The notes beneath the pieces are model-generated. The model saw nothing but the letters and a program-made list of their open reading frames with translations. It had not been told where the DNA came from and ran no database searches. Below are positions 15,818 to 24,048 of a DNA stretch of 64,000 nucleotides, one piece after another. The DNA comes from Orenia metallireducens (GTDB lineage: Bacteria; Bacillota; Halanaerobiia; Halobacteroidales; Halobacteroidaceae). The stretch is from NCBI RefSeq assembly GCF_001693735.1, contig NZ_LWDV01000007.1, positions 124,847 to 188,846 of the forward strand. Reading direction: 5' to 3'. The number at the start of each line of letters is the position of its first letter. The stretch's first letter is position 1. The position numbers and the translations under genes were made by a program.

Positions 15818-17284
15818 CTATATTTCTTCCTTAATAATTCTCTTTATCTCTTCAATATGAGTATTATATTCTCTAAAATTATGAGCTTGAATTATATTAT
15901 TTATAATTTCTTCTTTATTAATAAATTCTTTACAAAAATTATTTATAGCACTCAATAAAGTCATTATCTCTGTTCCAATAATTTTAGCTCCACCTTCTGT
16001 AGCATCAATATATATACGGTCTGATTGCGTGGAAATATATCTTTCAAATTCTCTTAAATACAGATAGTAATTAGTATCAGTATATACAAAGTCACCATAA
16101 ATTCCCTCTATCCTTCTTAGTAAGGACTTATCCTTCTTTCTATTTCCATAAAAAGTACTTGAAGCATGTGTCATTCCATCTTCAGCAAAAGCAAAATCTT
16201 GCCCTACACATATAATTGGATTCCCTCCTAATTTATAAGCGAAATCTAAGGCTGCAATTGCTACAGTTCCTCCTGTCTTTATTCTGCCCTTATCTATAAA
16301 TTTCTCTATCTTATCTGTTAATAAGTCATCTTTAGATAGCCCAAGAATTTTAGGCCCCTTATAATTCTTGATAAGCTTTGATGTTGTTCCTAAAGAATAA
16401 ACTAAAGGTATATCCATATTAGGAAGATTCTTAAATACCATTTTATAAATCCTCTCATTAGGCTCATTGCTTATAATAAAATCTGGACTTATACCCTCTT
16501 TTGTTAAGACTGTAAGTGCCGTATCAACACTAATTATTATTCCTTTAGTTCCTATTTTTTTTAACCTACTAATATTTTTATCTAAAGAAGGACCTGCTGC
16601 TACAATAAATATGGGCTTGTCAATAAAGGCATTTTTAAAAGACTTTACCCCTACACTAACATCGATAAAATCAATATTATTAATAATATTATCTCTAATA
16701 GCAGATTTTAATCGTTTATTATTATACTGACTGATCTTTATCTCCTCTAAAATATCTTTTAAGAAGATCATTTCCTTTGGTATAGATTTAAGAGATTGAG
16801 GGTGAACTAATAATTTACTATTTTTAGATGATAAATTTTCAAGAGAATTTTTCAAATTACTAATAAGTTCATCAGGGTTTAATTCTAAAATCATCTCTAA
16901 CCTTTCATCTTTTAAAATATTAGTTAAATCCCTATTCTCCAAAGCAACTTTAAAGATATAAGGATTAGTAATCACTATCTTTAATCTTTGATCTGATTTT
17001 AATTTATTTAATATAGTTTCTACATGATATCCTAAGGCAAAGCCTATTAAAATTAAAGAACCGTATTGATCTAATCTATATTCACTAATAAATCTTTCAG
17101 CTTCTTTTTTAGGGTCATATTTACTATGGAGAAATAATTCTTTATTATCCAAGTATAATTTAATAGTTAAATCTTGGCTTTTTGTTGTAATCAGCTCTAA
17201 ATCTTCTGGTAACTTTATTTTATTTAGCTTATTTCTAATATTAAGGTTAAGATAATTTAAATTGCTATTATAAATACTTCTCAT
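15818..17284 (-). CDS. Maf-type flagellin glycosyltransferase (6-hydroxymethylpterin pyrophosphokinase MptE-like)
   Basis: A 488-residue motility-associated factor. Maf proteins transfer CMP-nonulosonic acids onto flagellin before export. The core DUF115/MptE-like domain starts at about residue 225 with IFIVAAGPSLDKNISRLKKI, continues with IIISVDTALTVLTKEGISPDFIISNEP, and includes GGTVAIAALDFAYKLGGNPIICVGQDFAF. It is a paralogue of the gene ending at 17896 and shares these motifs. The first gene of this run is the larger copy; both lie directly after fliD in reading order, the usual place for maf genes. Which sugar it uses is not shown. Confidence 0.88.
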   Translation of the reverse strand: MRSIYNSNLNYLNLNIRNKLNKIKLPEDLELITTKSQDLTIKLYLDNKELFLHSKYDPKKEAERFISEYRLDQYGSLILIGFALGYHVETILNKLKSDQRLKIVITNPYIFKVALENRDLTNILKDERLEMILELNPDELISNLKNSLENLSSKNSKLLVHPQSLKSIPKEMIFLKDILEEIKISQYNNKRLKSAIRDNIINNIDFIDVSVGVKSFKNAFIDKPIFIVAAGPSLDKNISRLKKIGTKGIIISVDTALTVLTKEGISPDFIISNEPNERIYKMVFKNLPNMDIPLVYSLGTTSKLIKNYKGPKILGLSKDDLLTDKIEKFIDKGRIKTGGTVAIAALDFAYKLGGNPIICVGQDFAFAEDGMTHASSTFYGNRKKDKSLLRRIEGIYGDFVYTDTNYYLYLREFERYISTQSDRIYIDATEGGAKIIGTEIMTLLSAINNFCKEFINKEEIINNIIQAHNFREYNTHIEEIKRIIKEEI

Positions 17285-17308: not shown

Positions 17309-17896
17309 TTAACTTAGCTTTATATTTAAATCTTTAGCTAAGTTAAAGTAATCCTTTAGCACAGGTGTTACTTCATACTCTAGTATATCACTCAAAAATA
17401 TTGTATCTTGATTTTCCATAGCACTTAGCAATTCTTCTATAGAATTTTGCCATTGATCAACAAATTCAGCTTTATTTATAATATTAAACATCATTTCGTT
17501 TATCTGCATATCTTTTTCCATATGACCCAATAACATATTTAACCACTCTATACCTTCAAATAATTGCATTAACAATTGATATCCTTCTGGTTCATTCCCT
17601 TGAGTAAATAATTTAACAATATTATCTATACCTTCAATAAGTCGAGGTATATAATTCTCCACTTCCTCTAAACTATCAATTATCAAATCTTTTTTACTTT
17701 TAGCTATTATTTTTAAATCTTTTATAGGCATAATTGCTTCTAGTTCTGCAGCAGAAAAGTTAGTAATATCTTCTTCATCTGCTATTACTTCTACAACTAT
17801 AGCACCTTGAGATTCTATAGTATCTATTATATCCCCTACATTTTTATATTCTGTTTCTTTTAAATCAATATCTACTCCAAAAACAGTTATCTTCAC
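17309..17896 (-). CDS. Unknown helical acidic protein between two maf genes
   Basis: A 195-residue protein that I do not recognise. It starts with a short beta-rich stretch (MKITVFGVDIDLKETE), followed from residue 75 by amphipathic helices with a regular pattern (EVENYIPRLIEGIDNIVKLF, EGYQLLMQLFEGIEWLNMLL). It is acidic and has no signal or membrane segment. The GTG start overlaps the stop of the upstream maf gene by one base and the second maf follows 24 bases later, so all three are almost surely one transcript. No fliS gene is seen next to fliD; a chaperone or adaptor role for flagellin or Maf is possible but only inferred. Confidence 0.7.
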   Translation of the reverse strand: MKITVFGVDIDLKETEYKNVGDIIDTIESQGAIVVEVIADEEDITNFSAAELEAIMPIKDLKIIAKSKKDLIIDSLEEVENYIPRLIEGIDNIVKLFTQGNEPEGYQLLMQLFEGIEWLNMLLGHMEKDMQINEMMFNIINKAEFVDQWQNSIEELLSAMENQDTIFLSDILEYEVTPVLKDYFNLAKDLNIKLS

Positions 17897-19734
17897 TATT
17901 TATCCCCCTCGTCAATTAACCTTTTATAATGAATATTTAAAATTTCAAGAGAATTATTGCTTCCCTCAATTAATTTATTATAAAAAGTTACTAATCTATT
18001 TAAAATTTCCATATTATTTTCAACTTCAAATCTTATGTCCTTATATATATCATAAATTTGAGATTCAAAGAACATAACATTATTACCTAATTTATTAATT
18101 TGATTATTAATCAATGTTAATTGTGAATTAAATTCTTTAATCTTTTCAGAAAACTGGTTATCAAGTATCTGGTCAATTAACTGAAGTCCTCTTCTAGCTA
18201 GAACCTCAATTTCTTTAACATCTTCTATTACTTTTTCAAATTCTAAGATAATATCTTTATTCCACTTAACTTGATAAGAATTAATTTTATTTAAAACCTC
18301 TTTATTTATATTATTATTCTCTTGACAGTATAAATTAATAACCTCTTTTAAGGTCATTATCTCTGTTCCCTCAATTCTAGCTCCACCTTCTGTTGCATCA
18401 ATGAATTCTGTCTGATTTCCATTATCTTTTAAATCTTTAATGAATTTATTAAACCATTCTAGAAATAGATAGAAATCATCCCTCGTCCATACATCTTCTC
18501 CATTAATATCTTTTATCTTATAATACTTTCTGTTTGTATCTTTAAATTGTTCTTTAAGACTCTTCCTATAGTCACTACCAGATGCATGGGTTACACCACC
18601 TGTAAGGGCAAGATCTTGGCCTACAAAGACGATTGGATCTGCTTTTAGAATGCAAGCTAACCCAAAACTCAAATGAGCAACTGAACCTCCAGTAGGTATT
18701 CTACCTTTATAATCACTAAAGCTCTCTACCCAACCTATAATCTCTTCTCCAACACCATACCCTGGGCTAAAGACTACAGGACCTGGCCACTCTTCTATTA
18801 CGTGTCCATAAAATTGGGGGGATGTAACTAAAACAACATCATTTAACCTATTATAATCTAAACCTTCAAAATATTTCAATATATGTTTATAACCATCAAT
18901 AACAGTTACAATATCAGGCACAATATCATGTTTTAATAATTTCTTTAATACTGCATCAGCTGCAATTATTAAAGCTTTACCCTTAACCTCTTTTAATAGA
19001 TCAATATTTTTGTCTAAAGATGGTCCTGCAGCTACTAAAATTGCAGGTTTATCTTGACTAGTCCCATGTAAAACATTAATACCTGGTTTTGTAAGGAACA
19101 AATATAAATTTTGTAGCAAATTACTCTCCCATTCTCCTCCACGATTAGTTACTGTATACTTGTTTGCTCCTAAGATCTTATATATATATTTTAAACTCTC
19201 CATAATAATTCCATAATCTTCCTTAGCATACTTAACTAAAGAAGGCAAAAAAGACACAGCTATATTTTCAAAAACCATATCAACATTATCTTCAATAAAG
19301 GCAATTAATTCGTTACTATTAATTTTATTACTTAATAACAAATAAAAATTATCACTACTAAATAACTCAGTAAAGTCTTGATACTTTAAGGCTTCTTTAA
19401 ACAGCAAAGGAGTAGTTGCTACTACAAAAATCTTAATATCTTTATCCTTCAATTTCTGAAACAAATTAACAACATGATAACCCAATCCAAAACCAAGAAC
19501 TATTATAGAACTTACTCCATTTAAATTTATCTCTTCTACTATTCTTTCTGCTTCTCTTTTAGGGTCATATTTACTGTGTACTAAAATAAAGCTATCACCA
19601 ACTTGTACTTCTGCTGTCTTATCTCCATTTTTAGCATCAATAATATTGAAGTTAACCTTTTGTGTATTTTCTGATAAAGCCTGAAAACTTTCTGGATATC
19701 TTTCTTTTAATATTTCAAGATTCTTTTCTAACAT
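17896..19734 (-). CDS. Maf-type flagellin glycosyltransferase, larger paralogue
   Basis: A 612-residue motility-associated factor with the same core as its neighbour: ILVAAGPSLDKNIDLLKEV at about residue 235, ALIIAADAVLKKLLKHDIVPDIV, then PTGGSVAHLSFGLACILKADPIVFVGQDLALTGG. The C-terminal 130 residues are a long helical coil absent from the shorter copy. A TTG nine codons upstream is possible, but the ATG at 19732-19734 has AGGAGTGGGG in front and avoids the fliD terminator. It would glycosylate flagellin in the cytoplasm with an activated nonulosonic acid. Confidence 0.88.
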   Translation of the reverse strand: MLEKNLEILKERYPESFQALSENTQKVNFNIIDAKNGDKTAEVQVGDSFILVHSKYDPKREAERIVEEINLNGVSSIIVLGFGLGYHVVNLFQKLKDKDIKIFVVATTPLLFKEALKYQDFTELFSSDNFYLLLSNKINSNELIAFIEDNVDMVFENIAVSFLPSLVKYAKEDYGIIMESLKYIYKILGANKYTVTNRGGEWESNLLQNLYLFLTKPGINVLHGTSQDKPAILVAAGPSLDKNIDLLKEVKGKALIIAADAVLKKLLKHDIVPDIVTVIDGYKHILKYFEGLDYNRLNDVVLVTSPQFYGHVIEEWPGPVVFSPGYGVGEEIIGWVESFSDYKGRIPTGGSVAHLSFGLACILKADPIVFVGQDLALTGGVTHASGSDYRKSLKEQFKDTNRKYYKIKDINGEDVWTRDDFYLFLEWFNKFIKDLKDNGNQTEFIDATEGGARIEGTEIMTLKEVINLYCQENNNINKEVLNKINSYQVKWNKDIILEFEKVIEDVKEIEVLARRGLQLIDQILDNQFSEKIKEFNSQLTLINNQINKLGNNVMFFESQIYDIYKDIRFEVENNMEILNRLVTFYNKLIEGSNNSLEILNIHYKRLIDEGDK

Positions 19735-19759
19735 ATCCCCACTCCTATCTAGTTCACTC

Positions 19760-19792
19760 AAAAATAACTTAGGAAAATCCTAAGTTATTTTT
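19760..19792 (-). terminator. Terminator after fliD
   Basis: A 15-bp perfect stem (AAAAATAACTTAGGA with its complement) around a three-base loop, ending in TTTTT on the minus strand. It lies between fliD and the maf gene, so maf transcription from the fliD promoter would be limited to read-through. Confidence 0.75.
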
Positions 19793-21559: not shown

Positions 21560-21584
21560 TTTTTCCACCTCCTTTTATTAAAAA

Positions 21585-21612
21585 AGCCAACCGACAAATA
21601 TGCCGGTCGGCT
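21585..21612 (-). terminator. Terminator after flagellin
   Basis: GC-rich hairpin, arms AGCCGACCG and CGGTTGGCT with one mismatch, followed on the minus strand by TTTTTT. It lies 18 bases past the flagellin stop and before fliD, as expected for a very highly expressed message. Confidence 0.85.
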
Positions 21613-21629
21613 CACATAAGTCCTTTTAA

Positions 21630-22448
21630 TTATCCAAGAAGACTTAATACACTTTGAGACTTTTGGTTAGCTTGAGCTAACATAGCAGTACCTGCTTGTT
21701 GAAGAATCTGAGTTTTAGTTAACTTAGACATTTCAGCAGCCATGTCAGTATCTCTAATTCTAGATTCAGAAGCTTGTAAATTCTCTTCAGTAGTAGCTAA
21801 GTTCTTAATAGTATGCTCTAATCTGTTTTGAACAGCTCCTAATTTCGCACGGAAACCTGATACTGAACTGATTGCAGCATCGATACTATCAAGTGCAGCT
21901 TGTGCTGTACTAGCAGTACTTACAGACACACTACCAACATTTAAACCAGAAGAACCTGCACTCATAGATTGTAAGCTAACTGAAATCATTTGACCTTTGT
22001 TAGCACCAATTTGGAAAGAAGCACTTGTTTTAGTTCCATCAAGTAAAGTCATTCCGTTAAATTGAGTTCTACCAGCAATACCACTGATTTCAGCAATTAA
22101 TTGCTCAACCTCAGCTTGAACCTTACCTCTATCAGCACTAGTATATGTTCCATTAGAAGCTTGAACAGCTAAGTCTCTCATTCTTCTTAACATGTTATGA
22201 ACTTCACCTAAAGCACCTTCAGCAGTTTGAATTAAAGAAATACCATCTTGTGCATTTCTTTGAGCTTGATTTAAACCACTGATTTGAGCTCTCATCTTTT
22301 CAGAAATAGCTAATCCTGCAGCATCGTCAGCAGCACGATTAATTCTATAACCTGAAGATAATTTCTCCATAGATTTGTTCATAAAGCTATTATTAACATT
22401 TAAATTTCTTAAAGCATTCATTGAACTGATATTATTCTGTATTCTCAT
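21630..22448 (-). CDS. hag: Flagellin
   Basis: The filament subunit, exported through the flagellar secretion system. At 272 residues it has the conserved D0/D1 ends ([16 protein letters not shown] at the start and [28 protein letters not shown] at the end) and almost no variable D2/D3 region. The only surface-loop candidate is the Ser/Thr-rich stretch at about residues 160-200, which includes [20 protein letters not shown], a probable target of the Maf enzymes. Expression is likely controlled by a sigma-28 type promoter and by CsrA at the leader hairpin 22483-22500. Confidence 0.96.
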
Positions 22449-22482
22449 TAAAAATCATCCTCCTTGATATTTTGGTTTTTTT

Positions 22483-22500
22483 GAAAGCATCCTTGCTTTC
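22483..22500 (-). promoter_or_regulatory. CsrA-binding hairpin in the flagellin leader
   Basis: On the minus strand GAAAGCA-AGGA-TGCTTTC, a perfect 7-bp stem with AGGA in a four-base loop. This is the ideal CsrA site. The second GGA lies in the Shine-Dalgarno AAGGAGGA about 30 bases downstream, the same two-site layout known for the Bacillus subtilis hag leader. CsrA and its antagonist FliW are encoded just upstream. Confidence 0.85.
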
Positions 22501-22514
22501 TTTGAATATAGTGT

Positions 22515-22572
22515 ATTGTTCAGAATTAACATTTTATATGTGGCCACTGATATAAAATAATTAGTGAACAAT
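22515..22572. promoter_or_regulatory. Long imperfect inverted repeat in the flagellin leader
   Basis: Arms of 29 bases around a central GTGGCCAC; the outer eight bases (ATTGTTCA/TGAACAAT) and an inner ATTTTATAT block pair well with small bulges. As RNA it would form a long hairpin between the CsrA hairpin and the 22576-22607 dyad. Its role is unknown: message stabilisation, insulation or an operator. Confidence 0.6.
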
Positions 22573-22575
22573 CAC

Positions 22576-22607
22576 CACAATTAGATTTAAATTTAAATCT
22601 AATTGTG
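22576..22607. promoter_or_regulatory. 32-bp perfect palindrome upstream of flagellin
   Basis: A 16+16 bp perfect dyad (arm CACAATTAGATTTAAA). If the sigma-28 type promoter at 22628-22654 is real, the dyad falls at about +13 to +44 of the flagellin message and would make a 5'-terminal stem. It could also end the csrA transcript, but there is no T-tract after it. Confidence 0.55.
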
Positions 22608-22627
22608 CTAATTATTCTATATTATTA

Positions 22628-22654
22628 TTATCGTAAAAAAGTTAAAATGATTAA
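22628..22654 (-). promoter_or_regulatory. Candidate sigma-28 promoter for flagellin
   Basis: On the minus strand TTAA, 16 bases, ACGATAA, a fair match to the flagellar sigma-28 consensus (TAAA, 15-16, CCGATAA-like). It would give a leader of about 170 bases containing three hairpins. Confidence 0.4.
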
Positions 22655-22707: not shown

Positions 22708-22974
22708 TTAATTACTATCTATTTTAGCCTTTTCTCTCCTTTTTAGCTCTTTTTTCAATAAATCAGATAAATTAAGAGAAAATTTATCTTCAAAAGTAGC
22801 TGCTAACCTATTCTCTTCTTGAATTTGCTGATAAATTTCTTCACGATAAATAGTTATGGCTTCAGGAGCATCAATACCAATTTGGACTCGATTATTATCT
22901 AATTCTACTACCTTAATCTTAATATTATCATCAATAATTATACTCTCATCTTTTTTACGAGTTAAAATTAACAT
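22708..22974 (-). CDS. csrA: Carbon storage regulator CsrA
   Basis: An RNA-binding dimer that blocks translation of flagellin mRNA when FliW is sequestered by flagellin. The 88-residue chain starts MLILTRKKDESIIIDDNIKIKVVEL, and residues 37-46 (VQIGIDAPEA) carry the conserved core. The RNA-binding arginine in LTRKKDE and the late Y-R-E-E-I-Y segment are present. It is longer at the C-terminus than E. coli CsrA, as is common in Firmicutes. It follows fliW by 22 bases. Confidence 0.95.
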   Translation of the reverse strand: MLILTRKKDESIIIDDNIKIKVVELDNNRVQIGIDAPEAITIYREEIYQQIQEENRLAATFEDKFSLNLSDLLKKELKRREKAKIDSN

Positions 22975-22996: not shown

Positions 22997-23431
22997 TTAT
23001 TCTTCTAACCCCTTTTTAATAAGATAATACTTACTTGGATAGTCATCTTCCAAAATAATTTGTCCTCCAATTTTATTCTTTGCATTAATAATAATAGGTG
23101 CTTTTAAATTAATACTGAGATCACTTTTCCCTACGGTAGCTAAAGTATTAATAATTATTTCTTCATCTTTTACAGAGTTAAGCTCTAATTGATTTTGAAA
23201 TCCTTCTGATAAATTAATAATATAATTATCTACAAAATTAAAAGGATTGACCATAATAAAAGCTAAAGAAGGCTCTGTTAATGATTGTAACCAATAAAAG
23301 AGGTTATCATCTAAGCTATCTATAATTGTAAATTTAGTATAATCCTCAAACCCTAGTATGGGTTTTTTAAATTCAATAACCTTATCTTCTTCAATATCTA
23401 TTATACCAAAGTTTCTAGTTTTTATTTTCAT
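22997..23431 (-). CDS. fliW: Flagellar assembly factor FliW
   Basis: Protein antagonist of CsrA; binds free flagellin and so couples flagellin translation to filament assembly. The 144-residue sequence shows the family pattern: KTRNFGIIDIEEDKVIEF, PILGFEDYTKFTIID, FYWLQSLTEPSLAFIMVNPF. An ATG ten codons upstream exists, but GGGGGTTGGAG is placed for the internal ATG at 23431. It sits between a DUF6470 gene and csrA, the usual Firmicute order. Confidence 0.95.
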   Translation of the reverse strand: MKIKTRNFGIIDIEEDKVIEFKKPILGFEDYTKFTIIDSLDDNLFYWLQSLTEPSLAFIMVNPFNFVDNYIINLSEGFQNQLELNSVKDEEIIINTLATVGKSDLSINLKAPIIINAKNKIGGQIILEDDYPSKYYLIKKGLEE

Positions 23432-23463
23432 TTCTCCAACCCCCTTATTTAAAATACTCAAAC

Positions 23464-24048
23464 TTATATATGATAATCTACATTATTAACTACCTCTATC
23501 TCTAATTTTCCCTTATGCTTTAAATAAATATCCACTTGATCACCGCTGGCTTTAACCTTAGGAAAAGAGAAATTATTCTTAACCTCTATATTCGCAGGTT
23601 TAAATTTTACACTAATAGTGTTTGTTTTCACTTTAATATCAGGCGGAGAAATAGATTTAATAGTTATATTGGGTTTATCCTCAACCAACTCTTTTTTAGC
23701 TAGTTGAGCTATCATATTCCCTTTATTTTCAATTTTAGCTAACTGATCACCTTCACTTGCTATCTCAGTTGTCCCTTGAATTATCTTCTTTTTAGCTAAA
23801 CCTTTTAAATGCTTAACTAGAGATTTAAACTTTCTAAATTGAACATCCTCTAAAAATTCTGTCTTATCTATTGTTAATTTAGCAGGCGGCTGATCAATCT
23901 GAGGTTGAGCCAAGATTTGAAAAGGCTTAGGATTACCATAATCTATCTCTATTGTGGCAGAAGAAACCTCCATATCAAAGCTACCCCTTTGCCACCTAAT
24001 TCCAATCTGTCCCATACTTTGATTAATTTGAAGTTGAGGAATTCTCAT
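23464..24048 (-). CDS. DUF6470 family protein (flagellar cluster)
   Basis: A 194-residue protein commonly found between flgL and fliW in Firmicutes; its function is not known to me. It opens MRIPQLQINQSMGQIGIR, has a mid region of charged helices (FRKFKSLVKHLKGLAKKK) and a beta-rich end with alternating I/V (ITIKSISPPDIKVKT, KLEIEVVNNVDYHI). There is no signal peptide or membrane segment. The ATG has a weak GTGGGTGA ribosome-binding site. Part of the flgM-to-csrA transcript. Confidence 0.85.
   Translation of the reverse strand: MRIPQLQINQSMGQIGIRWQRGSFDMEVSSATIEIDYGNPKPFQILAQPQIDQPPAKLTIDKTEFLEDVQFRKFKSLVKHLKGLAKKKIIQGTTEIASEGDQLAKIENKGNMIAQLAKKELVEDKPNITIKSISPPDIKVKTNTISVKFKPANIEVKNNFSFPKVKASGDQVDIYLKHKGKLEIEVVNNVDYHI

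Follow-up and report, generated by a model that had tools for sequence, protein, structure and literature searches.

A conserved two-hairpin RNA element with a palindromic loop in predicted flagellin mRNA leaders of one bacterial class

Few bacterial proteins are made in larger amounts than flagellin, whose mRNA is a textbook target of CsrA and FliW. In Bacillus subtilis this control acts on hag (Yakhnin 2007, Mukherjee 2011; reviewed in PMC7652899), and the flagellin leader described here resembles hag in its hairpin with GGA in the loop, in a further GGA at the ribosome site, in having csrA and fliW as neighbours and in the flagellin target itself. The Bacillus leader as reviewed has only two CsrA sites, whereas here two further hairpins, P1 and P2, are added upstream (PMC7652899). 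The flaA leader of Campylobacter jejuni is similar in that its CsrA hairpins show compensatory changes and FliW acts as antagonist, but it is 45 nt long, holds two GGA hairpins only and lacks a hairpin with a palindromic loop (PMC4894983). A first-pass annotation of the present locus had already set the two large hairpins apart from the Bacillus scheme, correctly, and all three inverted repeats that it reported are found in the leader.

Architecture of the flagellin leader

Within the window, which is the whole 64-kb stretch of DNA analysed, the minus strand carries flgL, an unnamed gene, fliW, csrA, a 259-nt gap, flagellin and fliD in this order. All hairpins of the flagellin leader lie inside the csrA–flagellin gap on the minus strand, in the same sense as the flagellin mRNA (Table 1). 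The true start of fliW is probably an internal ATG of its open frame. Elsewhere in the neighbourhood, a 194-residue frame between flgL and fliW (23464-24048, minus strand) has zero NCBIfam matches, and two large proteins encoded downstream of fliD (15818-17284 and 17896-19761, minus strand) look alike by eye, the product of the latter matching the flagellin modification protein PseD below cut-off.

Table 1 Features of the flagellin locus in the window.
Feature	Position	Strand	Basis or detail
Flagellin intrinsic terminator	21584..21613	-	13-pair stem and U run
Flagellin gene (hag)	21630..22448	-	NCBIfam flagellin Hag PRK12804, E = 2.5e-93, short of the curated cut-off for this model
Ribosome-binding site AGGAGG, second GGA site	22459..22464	-	Sequence, in AUCAAGGAGGAUGAU
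P3, CsrA-type hairpin GAAAGCA-AGGA-UGCUUUC	22483..22500	-	Arms 22483-22489/22494-22500, 100% complementary; 4-nt loop AGGA
58-base imperfect repeat of the first-pass annotation	22515..22572	-	Perfect 9-bp core 22531-22539/22550-22558; 6-bp outer arm 22515-22520/22567-22572
P2	22531..22558	-	Position from covariance-model match; stem 22550-22558/22531-22539; 10-nt loop CAGUGGCCAC (22540-22549) with palindrome GUGGCCAC (22540-22547)
P1	22566..22617	-	Fold and covariance-model match; outer helix 22609-22617/22566-22574, G.G mismatch 22608/22575, inner helix 22594-22607/22576-22589, loop 22590-22593
Predicted sigma-28-type promoter	22628..22654	-	Consensus match 9/12; TTAA (22651-22654), 15 nt, TACGATAA (22628-22635)
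csrA	22708..22974	-	NCBIfam TIGR00202, E = 3.3e-25, above cut-off
fliW (open frame)	22997..23461	-	NCBIfam FliW models, best E = 6e-35; all below their cut-offs

By prediction, the flagellin mRNA has a structured leader about 172 nt long, with the order sigma-28-type promoter, P1, P2, CsrA hairpin P3, CsrA/ribosome site and start codon. Leaders of related genomes share the order promoter, P1, P2, CsrA hairpin and ribosome site. Folding, which the first-pass annotation had proposed as a check, gave −45.6 kcal/mol for the leader, far more stable than dinucleotide shuffles (−26.8 ± 3.8 kcal/mol; z = −5.0, reached by 0/200 shuffles). The same annotation had noted that a start site downstream of 22515 would leave the large repeats outside the flagellin transcript. 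The sequence instead points to a start near 22619-22623, and P1 and P2 would both be inside the message because the predicted sigma-28-like promoter lies just upstream of P1. In 21 of 35 related elements a CGATA −10 core precedes P1 by 15-130 nt, usually by 20-60 nt.

P3 folds with a pair probability of 0.99 or more. Some 30 nt ahead of the start codon, nearly every related leader carries a hairpin with AGGA, CGGA or GGGA in its loop, on a stem that is free in sequence or covarying, and nearly all have an AAGGAGG-type ribosome-binding site. Together with the GGA-loop hairpin, the AGGAGG site and the CsrA and FliW model matches in the window, these relatives lend good support to the two-site CsrA control first proposed for this leader, and we consider it very likely that such control operates here. 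It is the already known Bacillus hag scheme.

P1 and P2 as an RNA element

P1 extends beyond the 32-bp perfect palindrome CACAATTAGATTTAAATTTAAATCTAATTGTG (22576-22607) that was originally annotated; the palindrome is present, but as the inner part of a longer hairpin rather than as a complete unit. Pair probability is about 0.75 in the outer helix and 0.98 in the inner helix. Across 35 elements including the window, 90% of P1 cells are paired and 180 cells have changed on both sides, compared with 56 in shuffles (shuffle maximum 72). Three P1 pairs have changed on both sides between the window and its sister genome (G002) alone.

The 58-base repeat also survives in part. Its inner core is the conserved hairpin P2, but the repeat is not conserved as one unit: the outer arm overlaps the base of P1 at 22567-22572, the P1 fold is preferred by 2.2 kcal/mol (−41.7 vs −39.5 kcal/mol), and the sister genome has P2 without the outer arm. 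A conserved two-state switch between the P1 base and this arm is unsupported because the arm is absent there. In the window, the P2 stem alone is moderately stable, with a fold probability of 0.37-0.53. Three genomes (L182, L176 and L202) carry the palindromic-loop hairpin without P1 upstream of flagellin genes, so P1 and P2 are separable modules.

We then searched with a covariance model (R1) built from ten related genomes, with the window and its sister genome held out. In the 64-kb window this model gave one match (22618-22524, minus strand; 23.7 bits; E = 0.002, the E-values of this model being rough), which is exactly P1 plus P2. Matches at E up to 0.1 occur in 27 of 59 class genomes, and every distinct sense-strand element (35/35) lies upstream of a flagellin start, at a distance of 40-333 nt. 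Covariation among related flagellin leaders, whose lack would have counted against the original annotation, is strong in both hairpins: in an alignment of 25 sequences 86% of cells pair, and both sides have changed at 36 of 38 pairs. The alignment scores 0.566 for covariation, against 0.234 for shuffled and at most 0.135 for slid controls; it was fitted to the structure, and the slid controls are nevertheless far lower. Our shuffles preserve two-base blocks and ignore kinship between genomes. Wobble pairs fall on the mRNA strand, with 96 G.U against 26 A.C in mRNA sense, a real excess that is smaller than the raw count suggests, as shuffling alone gives a ratio of 1.8. On this comparative evidence, selection has maintained P1 and P2 as RNA structures in the flagellin mRNAs of one bacterial class, and we are nearly certain that the leader holds a conserved RNA element.

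The element matches no catalogued family. A permissive Rfam 15 search placed no family near threshold over P1 or P2 in the window, ten class loci gave no matches, and eighteen phylum loci gave only an unrelated tRNA and a c-di-GMP-I riboswitch, both elsewhere; identity with a known riboswitch or Rfam family was rejected on these searches. That riboswitch (L049:6708-6795) lies about 3 kb downstream of a flagellin gene in a Bacillota genome. No description of the P1–P2 element was found in an open-access literature search of one library. In a 398-genome phylum sample the full element matches class members only, and R1 returned nothing from 80 named flagellin loci of other groups because those loci are without P1. 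P1 plus P2 appears limited to one bacterial class, with an approximate boundary, as genome-wide filters miss divergent members. The home genome is itself such a miss: a second model, R2, built from 25 sequences, gave no match there up to E = 5 because the window element is a divergent member lost by those filters, and absence claims from genome scans are therefore soft.

Placement varies between families. In nine loci of family f3 (L146-L150, L153-L155 and L158), an upstream frame with a FlgL-like C terminus reaches its stop codon 0-13 nt before P1 begins, and no sigma-28 site was seen within 170 nt of P1. Here the element appears intercistronic rather than 5′-terminal, and its position right behind a stop codon with no visible promoter would fit processing of a joint transcript. 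Between the tandem flagellin genes of another genome (G003; L187, L188 and L190), long hairpins, two of them near-perfect (TATAGCGTTTAGCTAGTAAATTTACTAGCTAAACGCTATA), take the place of P1 and P2, and a CsrA hairpin comes next. A weak R1 match in genome G011 near 2468 kb looks like coding sequence.

The palindromic loop of P2

The apical loop of P2 holds CGGCCG in 30 of the 34 class elements, usually as a 9-nt loop of the form NN-CGGCCG-purine. Among the four variants, UGGCCA (in the window, within GUGGCCAC), CGUACG and CCUAGG are palindromic and UAGCCU is not, the one clear homologue with a non-palindromic P2 loop being that of G011. On stems of at least 5 pairs, a purine adjoins the palindrome on its 3′ side in 21/21 class and 26/28 phylum cases, and the 5′ side is mixed. 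The window loop has C at the usual 3′ purine position, as part of its 8-base palindrome.

In the named flagellin loci that gave R1 no match, P2-type hairpins came to light only through a direct scan for the loop, in Thermoanaerobacter, Salisediminibacterium and others. Our phylum sample comprises 101 flagellin leaders, those with an automatically unrecognised flagellin start being left out. CGGCCG is the most enriched palindromic hexamer in these leaders, with 51 occurrences in 44 leaders against 2.8 expected, and 28 of the 51 sit in a loop closed by at least 5 contiguous pairs, as opposed to 7% with shuffled flanks. Counted by leader, about 28 of the 101 have a hairpin with CGGCCG in its loop. 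The sequences of P2-type stems vary between genomes. Judged by these counts, many flagellin leaders across the wider phylum retain the palindromic-loop hairpin. Many others, in Paenibacillus and Lysinibacillus, are without P2. Several such leaders from these genera (L083, L090, L100, L074 and L078) tend to have a small hairpin, AAGGCU..AGCCU, directly after the sigma-28-type promoter, which is another possible 5′-end hairpin.

Substitutions were counted on stems of at least 6 pairs with loops within 160 nt. Besides 36 exact hexamers, this set contains one single-substituted loop (0.9 expected) and five palindromic double substitutions (0.3 expected). The sole single-substituted case (L240) holds a palindrome in another frame, GCCGGC. 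Of the five doubles, one (L147) sits in a different hairpin position. With stems of at least 4 pairs the contrast is weaker, single-substituted loops also rising above shuffles (16 vs 7.3). No enrichment was seen for palindromes that differ from CGGCCG at four positions. The central pair of the hexamer changes as well (CGUACG, CGCGCG), and the hairpin cannot pair those bases within itself.

Message pairing and its alternatives

A close structural parallel is the HIV-1 dimerisation initiation site (DIS). Like P2, it presents a six-base GC-rich palindrome in an apical loop; the palindrome there has purines on its flanks, dimerisation is proven and compensatory palindromes restore pairing (PMC7357161). 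Unlike that viral genome, the flagellin leader belongs to a bacterial mRNA whose dimerisation is inferred, and its 5′ loop bases are often non-purine. The computed duplex energy of CGGCCG equals that of the HIV-type GCGCGC. The kissing loop in the Drosophila oskar 3′UTR is also a conserved six-base GC-rich palindromic loop in an mRNA, where dimerisation serves localisation (PMC7357161); oskar differs in being a eukaryotic 3′UTR and has no homology to the flagellin leader.

In the mechanism we propose, the P2 loop would pair with the identical loop on a second flagellin mRNA through a six-base GC-rich kissing interaction, and flagellin messages would thereby associate in pairs. P1 would be a rigid hairpin, placed at the 5′ end or close to it, that guards the message against decay; a protective role, which the first-pass annotation had suggested for the large repeats, would be compatible with the data. 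P3 and the ribosome site would form the CsrA/FliW switch by which translation keeps pace with filament export. Paired messages could serve decay protection, shared CsrA capture or local translation; in Campylobacter jejuni, the polar localisation of flagellin mRNA depends on translation (PMC4894983). Taken whole, this is the best explanation we have, and we give it an even chance of being right. Loop–loop pairing itself we hold to be plausible, if slightly short of even, because the loop stays self-complementary while its sequence shifts and because its architecture is that of the HIV-1 DIS and oskar loops, with a computed strength equal to that of GCGCGC. The palindrome as such only permits pairing. 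Points against pairing are the non-palindromic loop in G011, the rise of single substitutions on weaker stems, the lack of enrichment for palindromes four changes away, the moderate stability of the P2 stem and the missing 3′ purine in the window, and the many flagellin leaders that have no P2. That P2 is a dedicated dimerisation element across a large phylum, whose self-complementary CGGCCG loop would join two messages head to head beside the CsrA switch, is possible rather than probable. P1 probably protects the 5′ end of the flagellin message, and its function as an mRNA stabiliser is put forward tentatively.

Alternatively, P1 and P2 could be mRNA-stability hairpins only, blocking 5′-end-dependent decay or marking the 5′ end that is created when a longer transcript is cleaved, with the P2 loop sequence incidental or merely stabilising. 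P1 begins right after the predicted start site in the window, a few nucleotides from it, and its position in the nine f3 loci, 0-13 nt past the stop codon of a FlgL-like frame with no sigma-28 site seen, suits processing. In Clostridium, selective processing and stabilisation by stem-loops is known; operon hairpins there tune mRNA abundance, in line with the f3 placement of P1, but they are described at 3′ ends and have no conserved loop (PMC4423207). A stability role alone leaves unexplained the near-invariant CGGCCG loop on stems of free sequence across the phylum, as well as why both bases of the central loop pair have changed (CGUACG, CGCGCG), and we regard it as unlikely, if a serious contender. 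A protein, ligand or trans-acting RNA that reads the loop would agree with the conservation of the loop sequence itself, beyond its palindromic character, and with the rank of CGGCCG as the most enriched palindromic hexamer in the leaders. Such a partner should tolerate single substitutions before paired ones, yet on long stems the singles are at chance, and no known riboswitch or other Rfam family was found in the window, the ten class loci or the eighteen phylum loci; this reading is distinctly unlikely.

The inverted repeats are palindromic in DNA too and lie between csrA and the flagellin gene, where an operator for a transcription factor or a csrA terminator might be sought. Stem sequences are free, however, loop lengths vary widely, the wobble pairs fall on the mRNA strand, and the element persists where csrA is not upstream. 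An operator was rejected on the wobble strand and the free spacing. P1 has 3 G–C pairs, then GTGATTGTTC, and is listed as a terminator only by a loose rule; on inspection of the leader sequence no U run follows P1 or P2, and a csrA terminator was rejected for lack of one. We consider the operator and terminator readings together to be very improbable.

Pairing of the flagellin messages through the P2 loop would, if true, amount to a pairing signal built into a bacterial mRNA, comparable to those of the retroviral DIS and oskar. Loop–loop mRNA pairing of this sort is known from retroviruses and was not found for bacterial messages in the open-access papers searched. A review stresses how few functional RNA homodimers are known (PMC7357161), and a loop that pairs messages would make the flagellin mRNA a natural bacterial homodimer. 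Flagellin mRNA is polar in Campylobacter (PMC4894983), and the loop would, if it does pair messages, offer a simple genetic handle on the storage or localisation of flagellin mRNA. An uncatalogued element before flagellin across the class, and its loop hairpin across the phylum, imply that part of flagellin control lies outside the known CsrA/FliW scheme.
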